Below are positions 960 through 44,044 of a stretch of 44,044 nucleotides of DNA, piece after piece. The notes under the pieces are model-generated. The model was not told the origin of the DNA. It searched no databases and saw only the letters and a program-made list of their open reading frames with translations. This DNA is from Embleya scabrispora DSM 41855 (GTDB lineage Bacteria > Actinomycetota > Actinomycetes > Streptomycetales > Streptomycetaceae), in contig NZ_KB889670.1 of the NCBI RefSeq assembly GCF_000372745.1, positions 82,480-126,523 on the forward strand. The letters are read 5' to 3'. Both the position numbers and the translations under genes were made by a program. The first letter of the stretch is position 1, and each line of letters opens with the position of its first letter.

Positions 960-3575
960 TCAAGGCAGGATCTCGACGTACCCGTCGGTTCCGTGCACGC
1001 GGATCCGCTGCCCGTCCCGGATCAGCCGGGTGGCCTGCTCCACGCCCACGACGGCCGGCAAGCCGTACTCCCGGGCGATCACCGCGCCATGGGTCATCAG
1101 GCCGCCGACCTCCGTCACCAGGCCCGCGACTCCGACGAACAGTGGCGACCAACTGGGGTCCGTGAAGGTCGTGACCAGGATGTCGCCCGCTTCGAGATCG
1201 GCCTGCGCCATGTCGAGGATGACGCGGGCTCGTCCCTCGATGGTCCCGGCGGAAACCGGCAGGCCGATCAGGGCGCCGGCCGGAACGTCGTCGCGCCGAT
1301 ACGCCCCGGTGACGGCCTCACCGTCCGATGTGAGCACCCGGGGCGGTGTGAGCGCGTGGTACGACCGGAACGCGTCCTTGCGCCGCCGGATGAGCCGGTC
1401 ATCCACCCGGTTCGAGCGCGCGACGTCGTGGAGTTCCTGGAACGTGAGGTAGAAGATGTCCTCCTTCTCGGTGAGCACGCCGGCCTGCACGAGGCGCTCG
1501 GCCTCCTCCAGCAGGGCCTGCTTGTAGACGAAGTAGCGGCTGATGATGCCGTATTTGGGGTACTCCCGGTACCCGACGAAGGTTCGGACCCGGTCGATCA
1601 TCCGTTTGGCCTCGTCGGCCTTCCGGTCCCCGTCCGGCAGGGCCCGCAAGCGTGACAGTACGTCCTGTTCCTTCTCCCGCGCCTTCCGCCGCCCCTGCTC
1701 GAAGCGCCGCTCGGCGGCGCCCGGCTCGAAGTTCCTGATGTTGTCGAGGATCACCGGCACGAGCGTGGTGGGGCGCTCGCGCCAACGTGGCCTCGTGATG
1801 TCGATCTCGCCGACGCAGCGCATGCCGTACCGGTCGAGGTAGTCCTCGATCGCGTGGCGCGCTTCGGTCCCGCCCGCGAGCTTCGCCAGCTCGTCCGGAA
1901 AGCCCTCGTCCGGGAAGCCCTCGTCGTCCCGGACGTCCTGCAGGAACGCCACCACCTCCGACCACGGGCGGATCACGTCCGCGACGTCGAGCAGCGCCAA
2001 TCCCATCTCCGACGTGACGTTGTCGGGGGCGGACAGCGTGAGCGTGTCAGCCGCGTTCTTCTCGCCCAGCCACTCCCGCAGCTTGTCGTTGAGCCACCAT
2101 GTGGCCTCCATCCCCGCCATGATCGCCCGCATGCTCAGCGGGTCGCCGAGGACTCGCTTGTGCTCCTCGAATGCCTCCAGCAGGAAGGCGAACAGCGCCG
2201 GTCCGGTCTTCGTCCGGATGTCGCGCTCCAGGGTGGCGATGGACACCCGGCTGCGCTCGATCAGCTCGGCCACGATGGCCGGATCGGTCTCGATCGGGGC
2301 GGACGCATCACCGGCCGGCGGCCCGTCGGGACCCGGGTCAGGGAGCGACGGGACGAAATCGTCGCGGTCGAGGACGGTCTCCAGAGCGTCCCTGATCAGC
2401 GGATCACCTCTCCCCAGGACGTCCAGGAGCCCGGCGCGGCTCGCGGGTGAGGCCAGGCGCCGGGTGACGTCGACGAACAACCTTCCGCCGGCCTGGTGCA
2501 TCGGCACCATGGCCGTCAGCTGCCACATCGAGAGCCCCAGGGGCTTCATGGGGTCGGTCATCATCTGCCCATGACCAACGGAGACGTAGACGTGATTCTC
2601 CCGGTCGCCGGTCTCGGGGATGGGGAACAGCGTCGTGATCGGGCGGCTCTGAACGATCCGGAAGCCGTCGTCGACCAGGCACCATTCGATGTCCTGCGGG
2701 CGGCCGAAGTGCGCTTCGATCCGTCGCCCGAGCCCCACGAGCCGCACGACCTGCGCATCCGTCAGAGCCGGCTGCTCCTGCCGCTGCGAGTCGATCGCCA
2801 CTTCCCGCGTACCGCCGGCCGGCAGGGCGTGAACGGCGCGCTGTTTGGAGGCGATCGCCTTGGCGACGACCTCGCCGTCTCGCACCGTGAAGACGTCCGG
2901 GTTGACCAGGCCGGACACCAGAGCCTCGCCGAGGCCCAAGCCGGCGTCCACGGTGGCGATCCTCCGGTTGCCCGTGACGGGGTCGGCCGTGAACAGGATG
3001 CCGGCCGCCTGCGCAAAGACCATCCGCTGCACGACCACTGCCATGTGGACCGTACGGTGGTCGATGCCGTTCCGCCGGCGGTAGGTCACGGCCCTTTCGG
3101 TGAACAGCGAGGCCCAGCACCGACTGACGTGCCGAAGGACCGCCGTCGGCCCCACGACGTTCAGGTACGTGTCCTGCTGGCCGGCGAAGGAGGCCGTCGG
3201 CAGGTCCTCCGCCGTCGCGCTGGATCGGACGGCAAAGGCGGCTTGCTCGCCAAACCGGGCGAGCGCGCGGGTGATCGCCGCCGCGAGATCGCCCGGGATG
3301 GCGATCGCTTCGACGGTCCGACGAATCTGCGCGCTGAGCGTGCGGATCGCCTCCCGGTCATCCGGGTCCGCGCGCGACAACCGGTCGAGCCGATCGTCGA
3401 TCGACGGCGCCTGCGCGATGATCCGCCGGAAGGCGTCCGTCGTCACGCAAAAGCCGGCCGGCACGCGGACGCCTTCGATCCGCGAAAGCGCGCCCAAGTG
3501 CGCGCCCTTGCCGCCGACGACCGCGACCTGCGTCTCGTCAACCTCTTGAAGATCCCACACGTACTGCTCGATCAT
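960..3575 (-). CDS. rph: rifamycin-inactivating phosphotransferase Rph
   Basis: This 871-residue cytosolic enzyme is expected to transfer the beta-phosphate of ATP to the C21 hydroxyl of rifamycins, releasing AMP and phosphate and inactivating the drug. The N-terminal PEP-synthase-like ATP-grasp domain (about 1-320) begins MIEQYVWDLQEVD and carries VVGGKGAHLG, AVRSSATAEDLPTASFAGQQDTYLNV and the ADPVTGN stretch. A rifamycin-binding middle domain follows the characteristic QMMTDPMKPLGLS segment. The C-terminal swivelling domain holds the phospho-carrier His near residue 829 in LMTHGAVIAREYGLPAVVG. Length matches the family (about 860-870). The frame is open 54 codons further upstream, but the ATG at 3573-3575 matches the family N-terminus and follows GGGGG. 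The usual SVGHQQMMTD reads SVGHGQMMTD here. A RAE lies 315 nt upstream, consistent with rifamycin induction. Confidence 0.95.
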   Translation of the reverse strand: MIEQYVWDLQEVDETQVAVVGGKGAHLGALSRIEGVRVPAGFCVTTDAFRRIIAQAPSIDDRLDRLSRADPDDREAIRTLSAQIRRTVEAIAIPGDLAAAITRALARFGEQAAFAVRSSATAEDLPTASFAGQQDTYLNVVGPTAVLRHVSRCWASLFTERAVTYRRRNGIDHRTVHMAVVVQRMVFAQAAGILFTADPVTGNRRIATVDAGLGLGEALVSGLVNPDVFTVRDGEVVAKAIASKQRAVHALPAGGTREVAIDSQRQEQPALTDAQVVRLVGLGRRIEAHFGRPQDIEWCLVDDGFRIVQSRPITTLFPIPETGDRENHVYVSVGHGQMMTDPMKPLGLSMWQLTAMVPMHQAGGRLFVDVTRRLASPASRAGLLDVLGRGDPLIRDALETVLDRDDFVPSLPDPGPDGPPAGDASAPIETDPAIVAELIERSRVSIATLERDIRTKTGPALFAFLLEAFEEHKRVLGDPLSMRAIMAGMEATWWLNDKLREWLGEKNAADTLTLSAPDNVTSEMGLALLDVADVIRPWSEVVAFLQDVRDDEGFPDEGFPDELAKLAGGTEARHAIEDYLDRYGMRCVGEIDITRPRWRERPTTLVPVILDNIRNFEPGAAERRFEQGRRKAREKEQDVLSRLRALPDGDRKADEAKRMIDRVRTFVGYREYPKYGIISRYFVYKQALLEEAERLVQAGVLTEKEDIFYLTFQELHDVARSNRVDDRLIRRRKDAFRSYHALTPPRVLTSDGEAVTGAYRRDDVPAGALIGLPVSAGTIEGRARVILDMAQADLEAGDILVTTFTDPSWSPLFVGVAGLVTEVGGLMTHGAVIAREYGLPAVVGVEQATRLIRDGQRIRVHGTDGYVEILP

Positions 3576-3889
3576 CGCGATACCCCCAAGGCAGTCGTGT
3601 CCCGTCGCACCGCACCGGCCGATCGAATCACCGGCGCCACCGGCTCCGTCGAACCTCTCGTCGGGCACGTCCCCGTCTCTGCCCGCCCTCCCTCGGACGA
3701 GTCGCCCGACCGCTCCGCCCGGTCGGGCGGCGCGCACCCCCGCACCACCGCCCCGAGCGCTCGCGACCGAACTGCCGGTCCCACCACCGGTTCGACGTCA
3801 CCGCGCCCCCCATCCGTCGACAACACACGCACGTCGTGCCCCCATTTCCGCAGGCTGTGGCCTCGGCCGACGATTTTGCGCCACCACCC

Positions 3890-3956: not shown

Positions 3957-4147
3957 TTGCCTTTTGCCGTGCAATGCAACCGACGAGCTTCTCGCGAAGC
4001 GTTGGCACGCCGCGTACGGCGGCGACGCCGTCGTCAAGCGCCGGGTGGCCGACTCGTCGGTCGCCGGCCCGGCCCGACTCGGCAGCACCGGCGTCGACGA
4101 AGCGCCCTGCCGGTCGAGCATGTCGCGGCCGTCCCGACTGGTCCCGA

Positions 4148-4282
4148 CTACACGTCCACGGCGGGCCACTTGTGCTTCTTGCCCCCGGCGTGCGTTCCGA
4201 ACAACGCCCCGTACAGCAGAACCCGTTGCCCGCTGTCGAGCCCCGTGAGAGCATCAAGGTTCAACGGTCCGTCTCCTTTCAT
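4148..4282 (-). CDS. small unknown ORF, 44 residues, divergent from the oxygenase pair
   Basis: I do not recognise this product. From ATG at 4280-4282 it begins MKGDGPLNLDALTG and ends GGKKHKWPAVDV. Third codon positions are mostly G or C through the second half, unlike an accidental frame. An alternative TTG start at 4262-4264 lies 8 nt after AAAGGAGA, the best ribosome site here, and would give 38 residues. The start region sits inside the left arm of a long palindrome, so its expression is probably linked to that of the divergent oxygenase genes. The middle is hydrophobic (RVLLYGALFGT) and the end basic. It could be a short regulatory or substrate peptide, or the tail of a decayed gene. 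There is no homology evidence beyond what can be read by eye. Confidence 0.35.
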   Translation of the reverse strand: MKGDGPLNLDALTGLDSGQRVLLYGALFGTHAGGKKHKWPAVDV

Positions 4283-4320
4283 TTACGCTTCGCAACGCAA
4301 ATGAAAGAGTACGGGCCGTT
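4263..4320. repeat. 58-bp imperfect palindrome in a divergent leader region
   Basis: Arms 4263-4287 and 4296-4320 match at 20 of 25 positions around an 8-nt centre. The core CTTTCATTTRCG is repeated inverted with one difference. Each arm, read outward, contains ATGAAAG, then an AG-rich ribosome-site-like stretch, then CGGNCCGTTG. The left arm starts the 44-residue leftward ORF. The right arm could start a 12-residue rightward peptide (ATG at 4301, stop 4337-4339) just before the oxygenase genes. It may be a regulator site, an RNA hairpin or an inverted duplication of a leader. Confidence 0.8.
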
Positions 4321-4377
4321 GCCATGTCCACGGTTTTGAGCAATCCATCGAGATCCGCGAATGGCAGGAACCGTTTG

Positions 4378-5607
4378 ATGTACACCACAGAGCCGGCAGA
4401 AGCCCGCATCGAGGATGCGAGCAACATTTTGGTTGCGCCTTCGATGTTGCAAGATAATGACTTGATCAGGGACTTCTTCGGGTCCACGATCACGGCAGAG
4501 GACCTTGCTTCTGGTTCGCCCAACCTCGCGCATAAGACCGTCTACCTGTGTGGCGATATATCCGGGATCACCGGCCGCCAACTGCATGAGGCCGCCCGGG
4601 TATTCGTTATCCGGGAGCTATCACACGGTTACCACGAGGACGCCGACGAACCTTGGACCCTCGTCGACATCGGCCGAGTTCCCATCCGCGTACACGGCAT
4701 CGGCGTGTACTACCGCCGCTTCTTCGGGCTCGACGCCGATCACTTCGGGCGGATCCGTGCGGAGCACGCGTTCCAGTCCCTGACGGAGTCCACCAAGCCT
4801 GGAACAGCCCATCGCAGCGGAATCTACCTGACGCCCGTCACACGAAACGGTGGCGAACTACATTTCCGCCTGCTCCGGTGCTCCACGAATCTCTCGGGGC
4901 CGACCGAGGGCTTTCGCCCGACCGACACGCGCATCGTCGAGGCTCTGAACCGCGAGGCCGCCGACGTCTTCCGGGACCAGGCGCCGCTGAATCACGTCCT
5001 CGCTCAGATCTACCACAACACCCTTGCCACGGCCGAGCGCAAGCAGTCCAAGGCCAAGATCTCGGCTCATGCCGACAAGACCAAGGACATGCCCGTCAAT
5101 GGCATCATGGCCTTCTGCACCTTCTATGACCGGCTCGACAAGCTGCGGCCCCTGGCCGAAGACGCCTTCGACTACGGCGTGAAGGGTGCCAGTGGGCTGA
5201 CCAGAATCCACTTTCGCCTCAAGGAGCCGGCCGAAGAATGCGACGGGCGCGCGCTCCCGCCGCAGTTCACCCTGACTCTCTATCCCGGCTCCGTATTCTT
5301 CATGCCGCTGTCCACCAACCGCCTGTATACGCACGAAATCCGTCCCTCGACATTGGACGCCGAGTTGCTCCCGACCCGCCTGGGATACGTGGTGCGCTGT
5401 TCGAGCGCCGAAGCCGTTCACAAGAACGGCCACACGTTCCTCAAAACGGCCGGAGATTTGGTGAAGCTGGGGCCACCCACACCGGCCGGTATGAACGAGC
5501 TGCGCAGGCTGTACGCCGAGGAGAACAGGACCTCGTCCTTCATCGATTACGGCGACGAATTCCTCTTCAGTATGAACACGGGAGACTACGTTGCCCCCCG
5601 AGCCTAG
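4378..5607 (+). CDS. putative 2OG-Fe(II) oxygenase-like protein A (first of a coupled pair)
   Basis: A 409-residue protein of unknown substrate. The last half shows an oxygenase-like metal triad: HAD (HxD) in KISAHADKTKDMPVNG, a distal His 88 residues later in STNRLYTHEIRPS, and an Arg about 20 residues on in GYVVRCSS that could bind 2-oxoglutarate. The SVFFMPLSTNR strand before the distal His resembles AlkB-fold proteins. The first about 200 residues have no motif I know. ATG at 4378 is chosen because AGGAA lies 7-8 nt upstream. ATG at 4324 would add 18 residues but has no clear ribosome site and abuts the palindrome. The stop overlaps the start of the next gene, so the two are probably coupled in translation. 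G+C is visibly lower than in flanking genes, suggesting transfer. Confidence 0.6.
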   Translation: MYTTEPAEARIEDASNILVAPSMLQDNDLIRDFFGSTITAEDLASGSPNLAHKTVYLCGDISGITGRQLHEAARVFVIRELSHGYHEDADEPWTLVDIGRVPIRVHGIGVYYRRFFGLDADHFGRIRAEHAFQSLTESTKPGTAHRSGIYLTPVTRNGGELHFRLLRCSTNLSGPTEGFRPTDTRIVEALNREAADVFRDQAPLNHVLAQIYHNTLATAERKQSKAKISAHADKTKDMPVNGIMAFCTFYDRLDKLRPLAEDAFDYGVKGASGLTRIHFRLKEPAEECDGRALPPQFTLTLYPGSVFFMPLSTNRLYTHEIRPSTLDAELLPTRLGYVVRCSSAEAVHKNGHTFLKTAGDLVKLGPPTPAGMNELRRLYAEENRTSSFIDYGDEFLFSMNTGDYVAPRA

Positions 5608-6364
5608 AATCTCGGATGAGATCCTCTCGTGCGCTTTGTCAACCGAGGAGAACCTCTTTGCGGAGCTGTCCGCTTCGGCTCGCTTGGAAGACATAGGAAA
5701 AGGCCGACGAGGCGCCACGCTTACCAAGATCGACGAGGCGGGTGGTGTGCCTCTCGTGCGTACAACCACTCGATACAGCAGACCGACGCAGCATTTCCGG
5801 GCGGTGCACGAACGGCTGGCGCAACAGATTCAAGAACGTGCGGCGCTTCCGGTCGGCTTCAACAACGCTCTCATCGAGAGCTACACGAACGCTTACACAA
5901 CCATGGGCAGCCATTCCGACCAAGCCCTCGATCTGGCCCACGAGTCGTTTATCGCCGTCTTCTCCTGTTACCAACATCCCGAGGCGAGCCCGCCGAGGAA
6001 GCTGATCTTCGAATCAAAGGGGTCCGGTGGCGAGAAGTTCGAGATCCCCCTCGCCCACAACAGTATCGTCGTGTTTTCCGTCGACTCGAATCGGCGACTC
6101 AGGCACAAAATCGTATTGGAAACACCCGCCGTCCGGACGGTGGACAATCAATGGTTGGGTGTAACCTTTCGAACGTCAAAGACCTTCGTTCGGTTTCGCG
6201 ACGGATATGTATACCTCCCGCAAGGTGCGCGCCTCATGTCGGCCGACGACGAGCAGAGGCACGAGTTTTACCAACTACGGCGCCGTGAGAACAATGAAAC
6301 GGACTTCATCTACCCCCTGCTGACGTACACCATCAGCGAGAGCGATCTGATGCCGCCTGTCTGA
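5591..6364 (+). CDS. AlkB-fold 2OG-Fe(II) oxygenase-like protein B (second of a coupled pair)
   Basis: A 257-residue protein starting at TTG 5591. GGGAG lies about 7 nt upstream and the gene overlaps the previous one by 17 nt. No in-frame ATG fits as well. The motifs are clearer than in its partner: HSD in TTMGSHSDQALDL, the AlkB-like strand HNSIVVFSVDSNRRLRHKI with the distal His, and an Arg 22 residues later in GVTFRTSK. NRRLRHKI here and NRLYTHEI in protein A align, so the two look like diverged duplicates. Such enzymes couple decarboxylation of 2-oxoglutarate to oxidation or demethylation of nucleic acids, peptides or small molecules, and the substrate cannot be read from sequence. Bases 6061-6120 are 30/60 G+C by my count, low for this window. 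Confidence 0.7.
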   Translation: MPPEPRISDEILSCALSTEENLFAELSASARLEDIGKGRRGATLTKIDEAGGVPLVRTTTRYSRPTQHFRAVHERLAQQIQERAALPVGFNNALIESYTNAYTTMGSHSDQALDLAHESFIAVFSCYQHPEASPPRKLIFESKGSGGEKFEIPLAHNSIVVFSVDSNRRLRHKIVLETPAVRTVDNQWLGVTFRTSKTFVRFRDGYVYLPQGARLMSADDEQRHEFYQLRRRENNETDFIYPLLTYTISESDLMPPV

Positions 6365-32378: not shown

Positions 32379-32708
32379 CCGCACAAGGGTTACGGAGCGC
32401 TGCGGCCGACTCGATACCTCGGGTCCCGTTTCGCGGGCAATTCTGGCCCCGACGGTGCTACCACTTGCGGTTTTTGGCGACGAGATGCACGGTTCCGGAT
32501 CGGGGGTGCAGTCGTCGGTTCTGTACTGACGGCGACACATACATCGGCTCTTTGTGATGCAGCGGAGTGTGTGTCGCGGTGTGAAGCGGAACGGGCCCGG
32601 GGGGCGTCACAGGCTCCGGATCGCGGGTGGGTCGCCTCCTCGCCATCGGCCGGTGGCGCCGACCGGTCGTCTCCTCCACCGGAGTGCCCGCGCGACGACA
32701 AGAACGGC

Positions 32709-32925
32709 CTACTGCGATCGGCTCCGCAATCTGCGCAGGACGTCGCGGACCGCGACGGTGTCGGTGTGGTCGGGGCCGAGGAGGCGCTGGCTCTCGGCCG
32801 GAATCCGTTCGGCTCGTGTGGTGGCTCCTCCGCCGCTGAACCGCGTCGAGTTCGGCGGAAACCGGGTTCCTGCGACGAGCTTCAGGGCGTGGATCGCTCG
32901 TTCTGCGTTGTCAGACGTCTCGGTT
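32709..32925 (-). pseudogene. remnant of a tetratricopeptide-repeat protein, C-terminal end
   Basis: A minus-strand frame ending at TAG 32709-32711 reads NAERAIHALKLVAG, then TTRAERIPAESQRLLGPDHTDTVAVRDVLRRLRS. The LLGPDHxDT pattern is the hallmark of TPR_10/12 repeats in actinobacterial regulators. No start codon or upstream repeats are found, so only the tail of a larger gene remains. It overlaps no intact gene. Confidence 0.45.
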
Positions 32926-32975
32926 GGCGTGCGACCAGGGCGAACTTCGTGCTGGTCGCGGGTGCGTGCCTCGGC

Positions 32976-33152
32976 GAGCTTCCGGCGACGTACATCACGT
33001 GCCTGCTCGACGGCGCCGAGCCGCGCGAGGAGGTGGCCCGGCTACTGGAGAGCGATCAGTGGCGGCTGGTCGAGATGGACACCGGCCACTGGCCGATGTT
33101 CTCCCAGCCGGACGAACCGGCGCGGATTCTCCTCGACACGGCCGGTCGGTGA
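32976..33152 (+). pseudogene. remnant of an alpha/beta hydrolase, C-terminal end
   Basis: The plus frame reads ELPATYITCLLDGAEP, then VARLLESDQWRLVEMD and TGHWPMFSQPDEPARILLD before a stop. GHWPMFSxPDE holds the catalytic His of a common alpha/beta hydrolase group. The nucleophile and lid parts are absent upstream, where the frame has no coding character. It is a leftover fragment, not an active gene. The 227 bases between it and the NRPS stop hold nothing I can support. Confidence 0.6.
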
Positions 33153-33379: not shown

Positions 33380-36300
33380 TCACTCGCCGGTGACCACGCG
33401 GGACACCTCCTCCGCGCGGTCCTTGACGAAGTAGTGCCCCGCGCCGTCGATCACGTGCAAGGTCACGTCCCGGGCGTAGTGCTCCCAGGCACGGTAGCCC
33501 GTCGCGTAGCCGTCGGTGAGCGGGTCATCGCTGCCCATCAGGGCCCGCACCGGGGTGCGCAGCCGCTCCCAGCCCGTCGCAGTCTCGCGCTGGAACCGTG
33601 CGGCCTCGACCATGTCGTGGCGTACGACGGTCAGGACACGGTGCCGGTCCGTGTCGTCCAGGGCTCCGGAGAAGCCGCCCACCGCGTGCAGTCCGGCGTA
33701 GAGCCGCTCGTCCGCCACGTCCGCCGGCTGGTCGTCGGCCGCGTCGCCCTGCGGGAACGCGGCTCCCAGGACGATCCGTGAAGGGGCGGCGCCGCAGTCC
33801 TCGAGGAGGCGGGCGACTCGGACGGTGAGGAGCGTGCCCGCGCAGTGCCCGTAGAGCGTGTACTCGCCGCGCACGGTCTGCGCGATCTCCTTCGCCAGCA
33901 GCTCGGCGGTCTCGGCCCAGGGCCGCAGTGGCTCGTCGGGGCGCACCGGGTCGTGTCCGGGCAGCTCGACGGCCCAGAGATCGGCGTGTTCGAAAAGCTC
34001 CCGGGCGAGGGCCTGGTAGGCGGTGGCGTTGCCGCCGCCGTACGGGACGCAGACGACGGTGTGCTCGGGGTCTGTCCCGTCCTTGCGCTCGGGGGTCAGG
34101 CGGTGCAACAGCCCGGATGCGTCTGCCGACGAGGCCAGACACGCGGCCAGTCGACGGGGCGTGGGGTTCTTGAAGACCTCGACCACGGGCAGCCCCCGGC
34201 CGATGGCACGGGCCAAGGCGACCGCCTTGAACGAGTCTCCTCCGGCGTCGAAGAAGTCGTCGTCGACGCCCACGCCATCCTGGTCGAGGTCCAGGACGCG
34301 GCTCCACGCACGGACGACGTGCAGCTCCAGAGCCCCGGAGGGCCTGGCGACAGCGGGGCCCGACACGGTGCGCGCGGGCGCGGGCAGGGCCGCGTGGTCC
34401 AGTTTGCCGTTGCCGGTCAGCGGGATGGAATCCAGCGACACGAAGGCGGCGGGGACCATGTGGTCGGGCAGCACCCTGCGCAACTCGGCGCGTAGCACGG
34501 CCGGTTCGGGCAGACCATCGGAGCCGGCCCGGACCACGTACGCGATCAGCGCCTTGTCTCCCGCCGCGTCGACGCGCACGGCGACCCGTGCGTCGGCCAC
34601 GTCGGCACGCGCGAGGAGCGCCGCCTCGACCTCGCCGGGTTCGATACGGAACCCGCGAAGCTTGATCTGGTCGTCCGAGCGCCCGATGTACTCCAGTTGT
34701 CCCCACCGCGTCCAGCGGGCCAGGTCGCCGGAGCGGTAGAGGCGGCTGCCGGGCGGTCCGTACGGGTCGGCGACGAACCGCGCCGCGGTCAGCCCCGGAC
34801 GGTTCAGATAGCCACGGGACAGCTGGCCTCCGCCTACGTACAGCTCCCCCACGACCCCTGCGGGTACGGCACGCAGTGCCCCGTCCAGCAGGCGCACGTC
34901 CAGTCCGGGCAGGCCGGTGCCGATCGCGCTGCCCGCGCCGCTGTGCACGAGCGCGGGGTCGAGCGGGCCGTGGGTGACGTGCACGGTGGTCTCCGTGATG
35001 CCGTACATGTTCACCAACCGCGGCGCGTCGGCGGGGTGCCGCTCGTACCACTCGGCGAGACGCGCCAGGTCCAACGCCTCGCCACCGAACACCAGTGTGC
35101 GCAGGGCCAGTCGGCGACCCATCTCGGGGCTCTCCCGGTCCGCGCGGATCAGCTGATGGAAGGCCGACGGGGTCTGATTGAGCACCGTCACCCCCTCGCG
35201 CACGAGCAGCGCGAGGAAGTCGTCCGGCGACCGGCCGATCTCATACGGGACCGTCACGAGGCGCCCGCCGTGGAGCAGCGGCCCCCACAGCTCCCACACC
35301 GAGAAGTCGAAGGCGGGCGAGTGGAACATCGTCCACACGTCGTCGGCGCCGAAGTCGAACAGGTCCCGGGTATGGGTCATCAGGCTGAGTACGTTGCGGT
35401 GTGTGACCAGGACGCCCTTGGGACGGCCCGTGGAGCCCGAGGTGTAGATGACGTAGGCCACATCGTCGGGGTTGTGGGTGCCGCGCTCGTCCGCGTCCGG
35501 GTCGTGGCCCGGCAACGCGGCGAGCGCCGCGTCGGTGCCGGGGCTGTCGATGACCACGGATGGCGTCCCTGACGGCAATCGGTCGGTGAACGAGGCGTCG
35601 GTGACGACGAGTTCGGGGCTTGCGTCGGTGAGCGTGTACGCGATGCGGTCAACCGGGTGGCCCGGGTCGACCGGCACGTACGCGGCGCCGGTCTTCAGGA
35701 CCGCGAGAAGCGCGACGACCAGTTCGGCCGAGCGGGGCAGCGCCACGGCCACCAGTCGGCCCGGCCCCACGCCGCGCCCGCGCAGCAGGCGGGCCAAGCG
35801 GTTCGCGGCGGCGTTCAGCTCCGCGTAGTCGAGCGTCCGTGCTCCCCCGGTGACAGCGGGCCGCCGCGGGTGCGCCGCCGCCGTCGCCTCGAAAGCCCGC
35901 GCGACCGTCAGGTTGGGGACGGGGCCGCCGAGGCCGCCCGCGCGCGACCAGTCGCTCAGGCGCAGCCGCTCCTGCGGTTCCAGTACGTCCACCGCGCCGA
36001 CGCGCTGCGCGGGATCGGCCACGAGCTGTTCCACGACCCGCACGAAGCGGTCGGCGAGGCGTTCGGCCGTGTCCCGGTCGAAGAGGTCGGTGGCGTATTC
36101 GAGGTGGCCGACGATGCCCTGCCCCGCCATCTCGGCGAGGTTGAAGAACAGGTCGAACTTGGCGACCCGGCCGCGCAGCGGCTCGAAGCCCACCCGCAGC
36201 CCGGGCAGCACGAAGTCCTCACGAGTGAAGTTCTGCCAGGCGAGCACCACTTGCACCAGCGGCGAATAGGACGTCGAGCGCTCGGGGTTGAGGACCTCCA

Positions 36301-39300
36301 CCAGGCGCTCGAAGGGCACGTCCTGATGGTCGTACGCGTCCAGCGACTTGCCGCGCACCTGATCGAGCAGGTCCAGGAACCCGGGGTTGCCCACCACCCG
36401 GGCACGCAGGACCCAGGTGTTGACGAAGAAGCCGATCAGCTCGGCGAGGTTGTCGTCGGTGCGGTTGGCGATGGGGGAACCGATGGCGATGTCGTCACCG
36501 GAGCCCAGCGCGTGCAGCAGGACGGCGAGCGCGGACTGGAACACCATGGACGCGGTGGCACCGCGGCTGCGGGCCAGCTCCTCGACGGCAGCGGCCGTGC
36601 GCGGGTCGATGGCGAACTCCACCACGTCGCCCCGGTGGCTCGCGACGAGAGGGCGAGGACGGTCGGTGGGCAGCTGAAGAGGCTGCGGCAGACCCGCAAG
36701 CTCCCCCTTCCAGTAGTCGATCTGTGTGGCCAGGAGGCTGTCGGGGTCGTCGTCGGAGCCGAGCAGCTCATGCTGCCACAGCGTGTAGTCGGCGTACTGT
36801 ACGGGCAGTTCGCGCCGGCGCGGCGCCTCGCCGCGCAGGCGGGCGGTGTAGGCGGCGGACAGGTCCCGGGCCAGCGGCGCGAACGACTCTCCGTCGGCGG
36901 CAATGTGATGAATCATCAGGAGGAGGACGTGTTCCTCGGCGGCGAGGCGCAGGAGCGTGGCGTGGATCGGGATCCGCGAGGCCAGGTCGACGGGGCGGGC
37001 CGCCGCCGAGGCCAGGACCTCGCGCAGGTCCTGCGGCGCGACATCGACGACGGGCAGGTCGATGGTCAGCTCCGCGGCGTCCAGGACGTACTGGCGGGGC
37101 TCGCCCGCGGCGTCCTCGGGAAACAGGGTGCGCAGGCTCTCGTGGCGCGTCACCACGTCGCGAAGTGCCTCGGCGAGCGCGGCCGCGTCGAGCCGGCCGG
37201 TCAAGCGCAGCGGGAACGGCGCGTGGTACGTGCTCGATCCGCCCTCGAACTTGTCCAGGAACCACAGGCGGCGCTGCGCGAAGGAGAGCGGAACGGTCTC
37301 CGGGCGCGGTGCGGCACGCCGCAGCGGGGTGCGGGTGCGGGGGTCGTGCGGCAGGTGCTCCACGAGTTCGACGACCTTGGGGGCCGCGAACAGGACGCGC
37401 AGCGGCAGCTCGATGCCGAGGACGGAGCGGACCCTGCCAGCCAGACGTGTCGCCAGCAGGGAGTGGCCGCCCAGGTCGAAGAAGTCGTCGTCGATACCGA
37501 CCCGGTCCAGACCGAGCACCTCGGCGAACAGCCCGCAGAGCAACTCCTCCAGCGGGGTACGCGGGGCCCGCCCGGTGGCCGTCGGCGCGAAGTCGGGGAC
37601 GGGCAGGGCCCGCTGGTCCAGCTTTCCGTTGGGTGTCAGGGGCAGTGAGGCGACGGCGATGACGGCGGCAGGGACCAGGTGGGCGGGCAGTCGCTCGCCG
37701 AGCCGGCCGCGGAGCGAGCCGACGAGCACGCCGATGCGGGACGCGCCGGACGGGTCGGTGGCCAGTTCCCGATCGGGGCGTGCGGTGGACGCGGGGTACC
37801 GGGCGATGGCCCTCCGGCCGCGCGGGAGGAGCACGGCGTCGAAGCGTTCGGCGCCTGTCGCCGAGCCGGTGAGCCGGGCGGTCAGGGTGCGCTCCGCCGC
37901 CCAGGCCCACAGGTCGTGCGGATCGAGGGCCCTGCCGGTGGCGTCCGGGTGCCCGGCAGCGGGACTGGATGGGCTCCCGGCCGTGGGACCGGTCAGCCCC
38001 AGCTCCGCCGCCAGTGCCGCCTCACTGCTGAGCCGGGCGTTGGGGATGCCCGTGACGATCAGCGCACCCTCGCCGTCGCGGGTGCGCCACAGCCGGTCCA
38101 GGTCGTCGAGGCCCACTGCCTCCGCGCCCCACGGCACGCGCGGAGCGTCGTCGAGGGCGAGGGCGCCGTCGTCAGCCGAAACCGGGCGCAGGACGACGTC
38201 GTAGCGGTGCCGGGTGAGTTCGTTGTGGACGCGGCCAGGTTTGAGCCCGACGTCCACGCTCGCGACGCCGTGCCGCTGCGCCCAACGCGTGAACCACTCG
38301 GGGTCCAGGGCAAGTTCGGGTTCGAGGAGCACCGCGCGCTGTACCGCGGCGCGGGCCGCCGCCGGGGAGTCGTCCGGGTGCCGGGCGCGGTGTGCTCCGG
38401 CGCGGAACAGCCACAGCGTGGCCAGGTTGCGCACGTCGCCGACGAGGATCCGTCCGCCCGGCGCGAGCAGCGGCAGCGCCTGTGCGAGCACCCGGTCCAG
38501 GTAGTCGGCGTCGGGGAAGTACTGCGCGACGGAGTTGAGTACGACGACGTCGAAGTGGCCGTGTGGCAGGCCCGTGACGTCGTCGGCCGCCTGGTGGTGC
38601 AGCGTGCACCGGTCGGCGTACCCGGCCTGCTCGACCTCGTCACCAAGCCGTTCGATGACCTCGGCGGACAGGTCGGTACCCCAGTACTCGGCGACCCGCC
38701 CGATGATCGACGACATCAACAGGCCGGAACCGACCCCGAGTTCGAGCACCCGGCGCGGCTCATCCGCAGTAATCCGATCCACCGTCGCGGCCCGCCACTC
38801 CCGCATGTCGGACAGCGGGATCGGCCGGCCCGTGTAGCTGGAGTCCCAGCCCGAGAAGTCCTGCCCCCACGGGGCGCGCGCGTTGGCGTAGATCCGGTCG
38901 TAGATCTGCTCCCAGGCTTCGATCCGCTGTTCCTCGTCGATGGCGGGGGGAAGGTCGGCGCCGGGCACCACGTACCCGACCAGGCGACGCTCGCCGGTCC
39001 TGTCCGCGACGATCGTCACGGCGGCCTGCGCGACGCCGGGGTGGGCGCTGAGGGCGGCCTCGACCTCCCCCGGTTCGACGCGGAAGCCGTTGACCTTCAC
39101 CTGGGAGTCGGCGCGGCCACGGAAGTCGAGCTGCCCGTCGGGGGTACGGACGACGATGTCACCGGTACGGTACATGCGCTCCCCCGCGGGCCCGAACGGG
39201 CAGGCCACGAAAGACCGGGCGGACCGAGCGGCGCGCCCGAGGTAGCCACGGGCCAGGCCGGTGCCCGCGAGATACAGCTCGCCGGGGACTCCGGGCAGGA

Positions 39301-42300
39301 CGGGCCTGAGGGCCGTGTCCAGGACGTAGGCGCGGGTGTTGCCCTTCGGCCGGCCGATGGGCAGCGCGTTGGGCACACCCGCGGCGGCGGGGACGGGGTG
39401 GTAAATGGAGAAGCTGGTGGTCTCGGTGGGTCCGTACACGTTGACGATCTCGATGCCGGGGCAGGCGGCGACGACCCGGGCCACAGCGGTCGGGGACAGC
39501 ACGTCGCCGCCGACCAGAACCTCGCGCAAGCCCGCGAAGCTCTCCGGCTCGCTCTCGGCCACCACCTTGAACAGGCCCGCCGTGAAGCACGCGACCGTCA
39601 CCCCCCGAGCGGCGACGAGACCGGCGAGCGTGGTGATGTCCAGGCGGCCCGGCGGGGCGAGGACGAGGGTGCCGGCGCGCAGCAGCGGGGTCCACAGCTC
39701 GTAGGTGGAGGCGTCGAAGGCCTGCGCGCAGTGCATGAGGACCCGCTCGTGCGCGCCGTTCGCGAAGCGGCGGTCCAGAGCGAGGCTCGCCACGGCGCGG
39801 TGCGTGACGGCGACGCCTTTCGGGGTGCCGGTGGAGCCGGATGTGTACATCACGTACGCCAGCTGGTCGGGATGGTGCCGCAGTTGCGGGGCGCGATCGG
39901 CGGAGCGTGCGATCTCCTGCTCGACGGCGGGCTCGTCGATGACCAGGAACGGGCAGATGTCCGGCGGGAGTTCGGCGGCGAGCCGGGTGTCGGTGAGGAC
40001 GAGGGCGGGTGCGGCGTCGCGCAGCATGAACGCGAGCCGTTCGGCCGGGTAGTCCGGGTCGAGGGGCACATAGACACCCCCGGCCTTCAGGATCGCGAGC
40101 GTGGCGACGATCAGGTCGGCGGAGCGCGGCAGCGACAGCCCGACCGGCGCGTCCCGGCCCACGCCTCGTGTGGCGATGACCTGGGCGAGCCGGTTGGAGC
40201 GGGTCTCCAGCTCGGCGTAGGTGAGCTGCGGTTCGCCGTCGACGACGGCGATCGCGTCCGGGGTCTCGGCGGCCCGCTCGGTGAACAGCTCGTCGAGGGT
40301 GGCCTCCCGCAATGCTGTCGCGGTGTCGTTCCAGTCGGTCAGGAGCTGCTCGCGGACCGCGCCGGTGACGATGTCGATCGCGCCGACCGGCGTGTCGAGG
40401 TCTTCGGTGAGACGGCGCAGGATCCTCTCGTACGCGGCAACGATGTCGGCCACGCGCTCGCGGTCGAAGAGGTGGTTCTGGTACTGGACGGCCACCTTCA
40501 AGTGCGGTTCGGCGAGGGCGACGACCGCCATCGGGTAGTGGACACCACTGAGCGGGCTCAGGCCGGTGATCCGCATCCCGGCGGCCGACGTCGCCTCGCT
40601 GATGGCCACGCTGTCGACGGGATACGACTCCAGGACCACCATCGTGTCGAACAGGGCGCTCAGGCCGAGGTCCTGCTGGATGTCGAGAAGCCCGTGGTGC
40701 TGGTGGTCCAACAGGGAGCCCTGTCGGCGGTGCAGTCCGGTCAGGATGTCGCGCAGCGTCCGGCCGGGGGCGCAGTCGACGCGCACCGGAAGCGAGTTGA
40801 TGAACAGGCCCACCATCGAGTCGACCTCGGGCAGCTCGGGCGGCCGTCCGGAGACGGTGGTACCGAAGACCACGTCCTGACGCCCGGTCAGCCCGGCCAG
40901 GAGCACCGCCCAGGCGCCCTGCAGCAGCGTGCTGGGGGTGACCCCCAGTTCGGTCGCCGTCAAGGCGAGGTCGCGCGCCGCCTGCGGCGCCAGGGGCACC
41001 TCGATCAGCCCGCTCCCCGCACTGTGTCCGTCCGCGGGCGCGTCGGGGACCAGCAGGGTGGGCTCCTCGATCCCGGCCAGTTCCCCGGCCCAGGCGTCGG
41101 CCGCCGCCTGCTGATCCTGCCGCGCGAGCCAGGACAGGAAGTCGCGGTAGCTGCGCACCGCAGGCAGCGCCGTGCCGTCGCCCGCCGTCGCGTACAGATG
41201 CGGCAGCTCCTTCATCAGGAGCGGCAACGACCAGCCGTCGAGCAGTATGTGATGGACCGTCAGAACCAGTTCCCAGCGATCCGCCGCCAGCTTGACCAGG
41301 GAGAGCCGCAGCAGCGGTGGCGCCGCCGGATCGAAGTACGCGCTGTGGTCGGCGGCCAGGAACCGCTTCAACTCCTCGTCCCGCCGCGGCGCGTCCAGCG
41401 CGCTCAAGTCCAGGTGACACCAGGGCAGTTCCACCCGTCGCGGCACTACTTGGCGCCACTCTCCCGAGCTGTTCTGGGTGTACGCCGCGCCGAGGTTCGG
41501 ATGCCGGTCGAGCCAGGCCTGCCCGGCCGCGCGCATGCGCTCCGGCTCCACCTCGCCGGACAGGTGGAAGGCCAGCTGCATGTGGTACGCGTCGAAGGAC
41601 GCGGTGCTGGTGAGCATGGTGTGGAACAGCAGACCGGACTGCATCGGGGTCAACGGCCAGACGTCCATCAGCCGTCCGTACCGCGCTTCCCAGGCGTCCA
41701 GTTCGGCCTGGTCGATGTCGACGAGAGCGGTGTCGGACGGGGTCAGCCCGCCCGCGTCGGGGCGGGTGCTGTGGTCGGCGAGTGCTTCCAGCGCCGTGCG
41801 CCACAGGTCCGTCACGTCCTGTACGTCACGGTGGGACAGCAGGTACTCGGGGTAGCCGATCCTGGCCTTGAGGCAGGGACCCTGGGGTGATTCGTCGACG
41901 TACGCGTTGATGTCCAATGAGGCGAGCGCGGGCATGTCCGGGTCGGGCTCGGGGATGAGGCCCGTGGTGCCCGCGCTCGGCGTGAAGCCGAGGCCGTGCA
42001 GGTCGTCGGGCATGTTCCCGGCCGCGGCGAGGTGACCCAGGTAGTTGAAGGCGATCTGCCCGGTGGAGTGCCACCGCAGGGCTTCGCCGGTCTCGGCGTT
42101 GAGGTGGCGCAGCAGCCCGTACCCGATGCCCTTGTCCGGGATGCCCGCGAGCTGTTCCTTGACGGCCTTGACGGCGGCTCCGGCGGGGGTTCCGCCCGCG
42201 AGCGCTTCGTCCAGGTCGACCCCGTGCACGTCGAGGCGGACGGGGAACATGCCGGTGAGCCAGCCCACGGTCCGGGACAGGTCGGCGCCCGGCACAGCCG

Positions 42301-44044
42301 ACTCCTCCCGACCGTGGCCCTCGACCCGCAGCAGGAGCGAGGTCTCGGCGATGCCCCGCCGCTTGCGCCACTCGGCCACTGCCAGCGCGAGCGCGGTGAG
42401 CAGACCGACGTCGACACCGCTGCGGAACGCGGTGGGCAGGGTGGTGAGCAGCGCCCGCGTGAGGGGTGCTGGCAGTTCCAGGTGTACGTACCGGACCGTG
42501 GACGTCACATCGACGGCCGGGTCGAAGGGGCGTGGGCCCAGATCGGGGTCGGGTCCCGCGACAACGCGTCGCCACAGGGCGAGTTCGCCGGTGCGCCGGG
42601 GCGAAGCCGCCTCCTCGGTGAGGGCGTGCGCCCAGCGGCGTACCGAGGTGGCGACCTCGGCGAGGCGCGGAGTTCGGCCGTCGCGGACCTGCTGCCAGGC
42701 GGCGGCCAGGTCCGGGAGCAGGATGCGCCAGGAGACGCCGTCGACGACGAGGTGCTGCAGGACGATGCTCAGCCGGCCCGCGGTCCGCGGGCCCGCATCG
42801 AACCACACGAACCGGGCCATCACCCCGGCCGCCGGGGCCAGCCGGTCGGCCGCGTCATCCAGTTCCTTCCGCGCCCGGTCGAACCAGTCCTCGCCCCAAT
42901 CGCCGTCGACGGGGACACGGCGGATGAGCCCCGCCGCATCGACGGCGCCGGGCAGGGCCACGTCGAGCCCCGTCACCTCTTCGCCGTTCACCAGGGTCGA
43001 GCGCAAAACGTCGTGCCGGTCGATGACCGCGGCCAGTGTCGCGACCAGACCGGCCTCGTCGATCCCGACGGGCAGATCGACCGTCATCGTCATGGCGAAC
43101 CGGTCGTGGCCGCCACCCAGTTGCAGCACGTGGTGAGCCACCGGGAGAAGCGGCGTGAAGCCCACACCTCCACCCGCCAATTCGGCGAGCACCGGTGCCT
43201 GCCGCGCGTCGCCGGCCGCCTCGGCGAGTTCGGCCACGGTGCGGCATTCGAAGATTTGCCTGGGTGTGACCTCGACGCCCTGTGCCCTGGCCCGCGAGAC
43301 GACCTGGATCGAGCGGATGCTGTCGCCGCCGATGGCAAAGAAGTCGTCTTCGACGCCGACCTGTTCCAGGCCGAGCACCTCCGCGTACACCCCGGCGAGC
43401 ACCTTCTCGACGGGAGTACCCGGGGCGCGGTAAGTGCCTACGGTGAACTCCGGTTCGGGCAAGGCCCTGTGGTCCAGCTTGCCGTTCGGGGTCAGCGGGA
43501 CCCGGTCGATCAACACGAACGCCGACGGCACCATGAACTCGGGCAGCCTGCCGGCCGCGAATCGGCGCAGCTCTCGCGGCGACACGGTCCCCACCAGGTC
43601 CACGTCCAGCTCACCGAGGCTATCCACGGCGCCGAGGCCGGACGGGCTGACGCCAACGGGCACCGCGTAGCCCACCAGCCGCCGCTCGCCGGTACGGTCC
43701 GCACTGACGGTGACCACGGCCTGTGCGATGCCCGGGTGTGCGGTGAGGACGGCCTCGATCTCGCCGGGCTCGATGCGGAAGCCGCGGATCTTGACCTGGT
43801 CGTCGTTGCGGCCGAGGTATTCGAGCTGGCCGTCGTTGCCGCGGCGCACCACGTCGCCGGTGCGGTACATGCGCGAGCCCGCCGGGCCGTAGGGGTCGGC
43901 CACGAAGGTGCCCGCGGTCTGGCCCAGGCGGTGCACGTAGCCGCGGGCCAGGCTCGGGCCCGCCACGTACAGCTCGCCGGGAGAGCCCGGCGGGACCGGG
44001 GCCAACCGCCCGTCGAGCACGTACACGCGGCTGTCGGTGACGGC
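33380..44044 (-). CDS. nonribosomal peptide synthetase, last three modules (partial, N-terminus beyond the right edge)
   Basis: 3554 residues in frame to the edge; numbering starts at GTG 44026, which is not the true start. Order: end of an A domain (1-200), PCP (Ser236), E domain (about 290-750, QHLVVDG 424-430), C domain (about 785-1230, HHILLDG 925-931), A domain (about 1240-2140) with an inserted N-methyltransferase (about 1690-2060, LELGVGSG 1762-1769), PCP (Ser2189), C domain (about 2240-2690, HHIAADG 2373-2379), A domain (about 2705-3215), PCP (Ser3265) and thioesterase (about 3320-3548, GHCAG, Cys3395). By motif position the last A domain reads DFWNVGMVHK, the threonine code. The methylating A domain reads about DAYCLGVSFK, which I cannot assign. 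The product should end D-residue, N-methyl residue, Thr. No tailoring genes are inside the window. Confidence 0.97.

Follow-up and report, generated by a model that had tools for sequence, protein, structure and literature searches.

A putative ObiF-type release module at the end of a multimodular nonribosomal peptide synthetase in Embleya scabrispora

The stretch of DNA that we analysed (the window; 44,044 nucleotides, G000:C109:82480-126523) comes from a contig that ends at position 127540, and its nonribosomal peptide synthetase (NRPS) gene runs off that end. The open reading frame (33380..44026, minus strand) encodes 3548 amino acids counted from the first GTG in the window and stays open up to the end of C109 (3893 amino acids); it is a partial gene, encoding the C-terminal 3548 residues of a larger NRPS. 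The N-terminal part, C1-A1-T1-C2 plus part of A2, is found on contig C147, which has ambiguous bases within C2 and whose last 485 bp are identical to the end of C109. Subject to the join between C147 and C109, the full line reads C1-A1-T1-C2-A2-T2-E2-C3-A3(MT)-T3-C4-A4-T4-TE, that is, four modules. The features within the window are collected in Table 1; we take the domain that follows T2 to be of the epimerisation type from its place and its motif.

Table 1. Features of the NRPS gene within the window, from the C-terminal end of the protein towards the contig end
Feature	Position	Strand	Basis
Thioesterase domain TE, residues 3323-3548, GHCAG, Cys3395/Asp3501/His3531	33383..34060	-	Pfam and alignment
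Cys3395 codon, presumed nucleophile	33842..33844	-	Aligned with ObiF1 Cys1146
Asp3501 codon, triad Asp at position II	33524..33526	-	Aligned with ObiF1 Asp1254
His3531 codon	33434..33436	-	Aligned with ObiF1 His1284
Carrier domain T4 (GGDSFKA)	34097..34309, approximate	-	Aligned with ObiF1 PCP
Adenylation domain A4, code DFWNVGMVH (Thr type)	34337..35914, approximate	-	Pfam, alignment, tree
Condensation domain C4 (HHIAADG)	35957..37309, approximate	-	Pfam and motif
Carrier domain T3 (GGHSLLA)	37346..37549, approximate	-	Pfam and motif
Adenylation domain A3 with inserted (N-)methyltransferase, code DAYCLGVSF	37577..40309, approximate	-	Pfam, alignment
Condensation domain C3 (HHILLDG)	40352..41659, approximate	-	Pfam and motif
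Epimerisation-type domain E2 (QHLVVDG)	41747..43174, approximate	-	Pfam reports Condensation
Carrier domain T2 (GGDSIRS)	43211..43414, approximate	-	Pfam and motif
A2, C-terminal part; gene runs past the window to the contig end and onto C147	43457..44044	-	

To judge by eye, the genes that flank the NRPS within the window (for a sugar ABC transporter and for fucosidase-like and dehydratase-like proteins) have no evident link with it. Also by eye, a 925-residue ORF at 960-3737 resembles phosphoenolpyruvate-synthase-like antibiotic phosphotransferases, and two adjacent genes at 4324-6364 (427 and 257 residues) are perhaps dioxygenase-like; the GC content of 62% at 4001-6000 is below that of most of the window. 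A short plus-strand ORF at 32571-33152 has no Pfam match, but its end resembles the C-terminus of an alpha/beta hydrolase (TGHWPMF), and it is perhaps a gene remnant.

Pfam assigns residues 3323-3543 to Thioesterase, with a whole-protein E-value of 4.1e-23. A sequence-only reading of this DNA had named Cys3395, in GHCAG, as the nucleophile and regarded the Asp and His partners as kept, and the alignment with ObiF1 bears this out: the triad Asp is the second Asp of GSDDPLT, in register with Asp1254 of ObiF1, and His3531 aligns with His1284. Position I holds an Ala rather than an Asp, the triad Asp being at position II. The features of the EntF type (Ser nucleophile, Asp at position I) are thus absent, as is the Gln-Cys-Asn motif of SulM, here His-Cys-Ala, and the domain is fused to T4 rather than free-standing as type II thioesterases (TEs) are. 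All three triad residues matter in ObiF1, a Leu at position I is harmful there, and the C1146S variant yields the hydroxy acid only, so the Cys matters for ring closure in that enzyme (PMC6668435, in excerpt). Among NRPS TEs with a solved structure, those that carry the triad Asp at position II are ObiF1 and SulM, and both close four-membered rings (PMC11298585, in excerpt).

The same arrangement (H-C-A, Asp II, Ala or Gly at position I) is found in 10 of 10 TEs that either follow a Thr-type A domain or, for G002, are included by orthology. The column of ObiF1 Arg1190 is more variable among these 10, with Val in our TE, Trp in six and Arg in one, a lone C-A-T-TE protein of G201 (L133/L120), the alignment of the lid being uncertain. 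Changing Arg1190 to Ala in ObiF1 causes an approximately 10-fold loss; we regard this residue as helpful in ObiF1 but do not take it as family-defining. The span from position I to Asp II is 79-88 residues, compared with 77-79 in type II TEs, and since a short span is common to the latter, it does not single out ring closure.

By sequence, ObiF1 (PDB 6N8E) is the closest relative among the solved structures. For the PCP-TE portion, ObiF1 is the best match (E 8e-44) and SulM the next (2e-19), and in this search ObiF1 scores 153.5 bits, versus 29.7 for valinomycin Vlm2 and 29.2 for surfactin. The complete A-T-TE block matches ObiF1 with 670 bits over query residues 8-843 of 849, versus 419 for DhbF and 349 for EntF; linear gramicidin synthetase reaches 656 bits, but by summing several stretches. 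An AlphaFold model of the TE (pLDDT 89.7) gave a similar picture by Foldseek E-value, with ObiF1 first and SulM in the next four places, whereas the TM-score favours SulM (0.83, rmsd 2.9) over ObiF1 (0.71, rmsd 7.8, multidomain chain). With ObiF1 our protein shares the A-PCP-TE ancestry, the GHCAG Cys, Asp II, a small position I residue and an A domain that falls in the Thr-type clade and would take a beta-hydroxy amino acid; unlike ObiF1, a single C-A-PCP-TE-MLP module with a dihydroxybenzoyl cap and an aromatic residue, it belongs to a four-module line with a Thr code and stops at the TE, with no fused MLP. With the TE of SulM (sulfazecin; PDB 8W2C/8W2D) it shares the Cys nucleophile and Asp at position II, but SulM combines Gln-Cys-Asn with a Dap residue (PMC11298585, in excerpt), whereas ours combines His-Cys-Ala with a Thr-type code. 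A by-eye reading of the genes of the window and of C147 recognised no sulfotransferase gene, a SulM-type trait.

By alignment, the specificity code of A4 is DFWNVGMVH, which by convention we take to be a Thr code, as had also been proposed from the sequence alone. In a quick A-domain tree, from which four long A domains were dropped, A4 clusters with DFWNIGMVH domains of Bacillus and Flavobacterium (support 99) and also with the A domain of ObiF1 (94 for the inner group), which falls inside the Thr-type clade even though its own code in the same alignment is DAWGCGMIN. We therefore predict from code and clade that A4 selects Thr. L-Thr is not accepted by ObiF1 itself (PMC6668435, in excerpt).

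We surveyed related modules by searching the family (16 of 394 genomes at E <= 1e-55, our own included), genus g9 (14 of 392 at 1e-60) and the phylum (2 of 396 at 1e-40, our own included), with five candidates scored per genome; we read g9 as Streptomyces, the genus to which the named relatives in these groups (L040, L052) belong. A search of a plasmid collection returned matches only below 60% identity. Scripts that look for simple motifs identified the codes and the Ser- or Cys-TE modules, and one extracted code is misaligned. Among the 52 Cys-TE modules, one of which (L118, Mucilaginibacter) lies outside the superfamily studied, the terminal code is of the Thr type in nine (our own, that of G001 and seven with DFWSVGMVH), the frameshifted terminal A domain of the G002 assembly being left out. 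The others are DMYNFGLIH (15), DFTKIGHVG (8), DLTKIAHVS (4), DVWHVSLVD/DVWHISLVD (6; presumably Ser-like), DMGEIGSVD/DMGEIGAVD (6; presumably Orn-like) and four single codes, including the Gly-like DILQVGVIW (L047). Thr-type codes account for 9 of the 24 readable GHCAG modules, the remaining 15 being DMYNFGLIH, and for none of the 27 other Cys-TE modules of the superfamily. A Thr code precedes one of 38 modules scored as Ser-TE, a few of whose motifs are doubtful, and 13 of the 270 A domains read in the loci examined, the nine Cys-TE ones included, have Thr-like codes. The nine Thr-type modules are of one A-domain lineage and so are not independent events.

The Cys that had been singled out because most NRPS TEs carry Ser is indeed present, but it is not rare in this setting: four further Cys-TEs of this superfamily are embedded in NRPSs of the same genome. 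These (L003, L002, L004 and L013, on C105, C107 and C180) carry GHCLG or GHCGVG and follow what we take to be Orn-, Asp- and Ser-like codes; in the two that were examined to the end (on C105 and C107), the protein continues in frame after the TE into a stretch that resembles an MFS transporter. Cys-TEs of the superfamily also follow Gly-, Orn- and Asp-like codes, and a general rule that a Cys-TE means a beta-lactone was therefore rejected. The earlier proposal that this Cys-TE, placed after a Thr module, may form a beta-lactone is supported, but through the Thr-type A4 and the ancestry that the A-T-TE block as a whole shares with ObiF1; the Cys alone is weak evidence.

A phylogeny of the TE against ObiF-type and ordinary TEs, which had been suggested as a check, placed it with ObiF1. 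In the full TE tree (81 rows), 56 NRPS-embedded TEs, ObiF1 and SulM (58 rows) are split at 100/100 from a 23-row group of type II-like TEs, with their Ser nucleophiles, and the second TEs of two tandem-TE proteins; ObiF1 here joins SulM and L146 (83/72, long branches). A TE-only tree of 46 rows, with SulM, L146, the type II group and 10 DMYNFGLIH rows dropped, separates ObiF1 and the GHCAG TEs (18 rows) from the 28 others at 100/99. Within it, the Thr and DMYNFGLIH TEs together form a clade (95/94), and the position of our TE is nearer the DMYNFGLIH group (88/85), with the other Thr TEs further away. The Thr TEs alone form no clade in the best TE-only tree, but such a clade is not rejected (p-AU 0.325 without ObiF1); forcing them together with ObiF1 costs 12.7 log units and is likewise neither rejected nor shown (p-AU 0.121). 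In the A-T-TE tree (43 rows, with 10 of 15 DMYNFGLIH rows and G002 dropped), ObiF1 groups with the nine Thr modules at 98/98, and the nine alone at 96/93; the 98/98 support derives partly from the A domain. Macrocyclising Ser-TEs were compared by sequence score instead of in the trees, and matched far more weakly than ObiF1.

These trees bear on plain hydrolysis, in which the Cys-TE would release a linear peptide acid ending in Thr. Hydrolysis is a default chemistry of TEs, one Cys-TE of the superfamily (L047) follows a Gly-like code and could not form a beta-lactone, and the Asp II triad is common to type II TEs such as RifR (PMC6668435, in excerpt). The MFS-fused and Gly-code Cys-TEs, however, fall among the 28 rows across the 100/99 branch from our TE, and the smallest supported TE clade that holds our TE contains, where readable, only the Thr-type code and a code nearest to the Cys type (DMYNFGLIH), both of which would imply a terminal residue with a beta nucleophile. 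We thus consider hydrolysis improbable, if somewhat less so than the other alternatives below.

Judged from sequence, A4-T4-TE has the features that we take as defining for an ObiF-type release module, placed on a multimodular line, and the TE likely works like ObiF because of its homology, triad layout and fitting terminal residue. On balance, we lean towards release of a short, acylated peptide in the form of a threonine beta-lactone. A4 would load L-Thr on T4, as its code and clade suggest, and C4 would join the upstream N-acyl tripeptide (acyl-X1-D-X2-N-methyl-X3) to it. By homology, the peptidyl-Thr would then pass from the T4 thiol to Cys3395, where His3531 and Asp3501 would activate the Thr beta-hydroxyl for attack on the Cys thioester, and the peptide would leave as a 3-amino-4-methyl-oxetan-2-one, that is, a C-terminal Thr beta-lactone. 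The domains, motifs, ancestry and gene neighbourhood behind this scheme are observed; the substrate and its transfer, the acyl cap, the identity of X1-X3 and the ring closure are all inferred.

Thr could instead serve a larger ring, either with its hydroxyl used between chains, in the style of enterobactin and bacillibactin, or with another side chain closing a macrolactone. The g9 relatives share the C-A(Thr)-T-TE layout of EntF and DhbF, the latter of which also uses Thr, and several lie near genes that by eye resemble salicylate synthases. Two of these Thr-type relatives were compared with ObiF1 and EntF: L133 (G201), a lone C-A-T-TE adjoining a SARP-like regulator, and L135 (G311), a C-A-T-TE that is part of a larger locus. 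In each case the match to ObiF1 spans almost the full length and is much better than that to EntF (986 versus 546 bits and 901 versus 503 bits). In EntF, the triad Asp occupies position I (PMC6668435, in excerpt), unlike in our TE, and the sequence scores of EntF, like those of DhbF, are far lower; we regard an oligolactone or macrolactone as unlikely. The salicylate synthase-like genes are in the G234/G792 and G311/VRA16 loci, which in places also have AMP-ligase-, tryptophan-halogenase- or SbnA/SbnB-like genes (all named by eye). With such genes nearby, some Thr-type lines may end in an aryl-capped Thr, on a plan near that of obafluorin.

The genes divergent from the NRPS on C147 encode LeuA-like (420 residues), fused LeuD-LeuC-like (661 residues) and LeuB-like (350 residues) proteins, all with clear NCBIfam matches under the curated cut-offs (the LeuDC-like protein was scanned as its G001 copy). 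An orthologous NRPS is present in two of three congeneric genomes (TE 87-88% identical), adjoined in both by the LeuA- and LeuDC-like genes. The LeuA-like gene and the NRPS occur in the same three of four genomes, the fourth, G003, being a draft of 1650 contigs. A LeuA-, fused LeuDC- and LeuB-like set beside an NRPS recalls the HphA/HphCD/HphB homologation set of the anabaenopeptins; the active site of our LeuA-like protein differs, by eye, from the residues listed for HphA, and it fits neither isopropylmalate synthase nor homocitrate synthase (PMC12961565, in excerpt). The probable role of the three genes is to provide one of the upstream modules with a chain-extended building block.

The same genes could alternatively be the source of any four-membered ring, as in the belactosin and cystargolide pathways, which use LeuA-like genes, with the NRPS as a carrier only. 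In all three genomes where the NRPS was found, the LeuA- and LeuDC-like genes lie next to it in divergent orientation. The set resembles one for keto-acid chain extension, however, and the line ends in a Thr-type module. Moreover, although our product would likewise be a peptide with a beta-lactone warhead, the belactosins and cystargolides are made warhead first, by standalone ligases rather than an NRPS (PMC11427300, in excerpt); the term isopropylmalate is absent from that paper. A ring made by these genes seems very unlikely to us.

The orthologous lines differ in length, the G001 NRPS having three A domains and ours four modules. The border between the two arrangements falls inside an A domain (A2 of G000 versus the A1 region of G001), which suggests that a module was lost or gained by recombination within A domains.

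What would be new in our preferred reading, release of the peptide as a Thr beta-lactone, is that a release module of the obafluorin type sits on a multimodular line. As a class, beta-lactones react with proteases, synthetases and hydrolases by acylating their Ser, Cys or Thr nucleophiles. In the two kinds of beta-lactone system considered here, the ring is either carried by a single N-acyl amino acid (obafluorin; PMC6668435, in excerpt) or made before the peptide (belactosins and cystargolides; PMC11427300, in excerpt); if the peptide is instead built first and the ring closed at release, this would be a programmable route to peptide beta-lactones. More tentatively, and with rather less confidence than for this one line, we suggest that a family of actinomycete NRPSs of one, three or four modules may use an ObiF-related A-T-TE block as a portable cassette that arms a peptide or acyl amino acid with a Thr beta-lactone at release, and that the sister DMYNFGLIH TEs (15 loci) may form beta-thiolactones. 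The family offers several small proteins for testing, including the lone C-A-T-TE with an Arg at the Arg1190 column.

We know of no product for any member of this actinomycete group. Among the titles and abstract openings of the open-licence literature seen, there was no report of an NRPS-made peptidyl Thr beta-lactone. Obafluorin inhibits ThrRS, according to literature seen in part, and a second ThrRS was considered as a resistance clue but rejected as widespread irrespective of the NRPS: it occurs in all four genomes of the genus, including one without the NRPS, in one of the six g9 genomes that have a Thr-type relative and, at E <= 1e-100, in 30 of 61 genomes of g9 overall. A second proteasome beta subunit was found in none of the four genomes.

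The DMYNFGLIH modules belong to a conserved locus (L136-L141, L040 and others; 15 hits) in g9 and one named Streptomyces, which ends in a C-A-T-TE with a GHCAG Cys-TE. Their A domain groups with that of the Cys-type code DLYNLSLIW (100 and 99; two rows in the trees), which we also take to be the nearest code, and their C domain has HHxxxDG and no cyclisation motif in the two proteins checked; a beta-thiolactone is a conceivable product of these lines. The tandem-TE proteins L130 and L157 (G198, G780) carry a GHCAGAS Cys-TE followed by a second TE in the same protein, with no A domain found upstream within the stretch examined.
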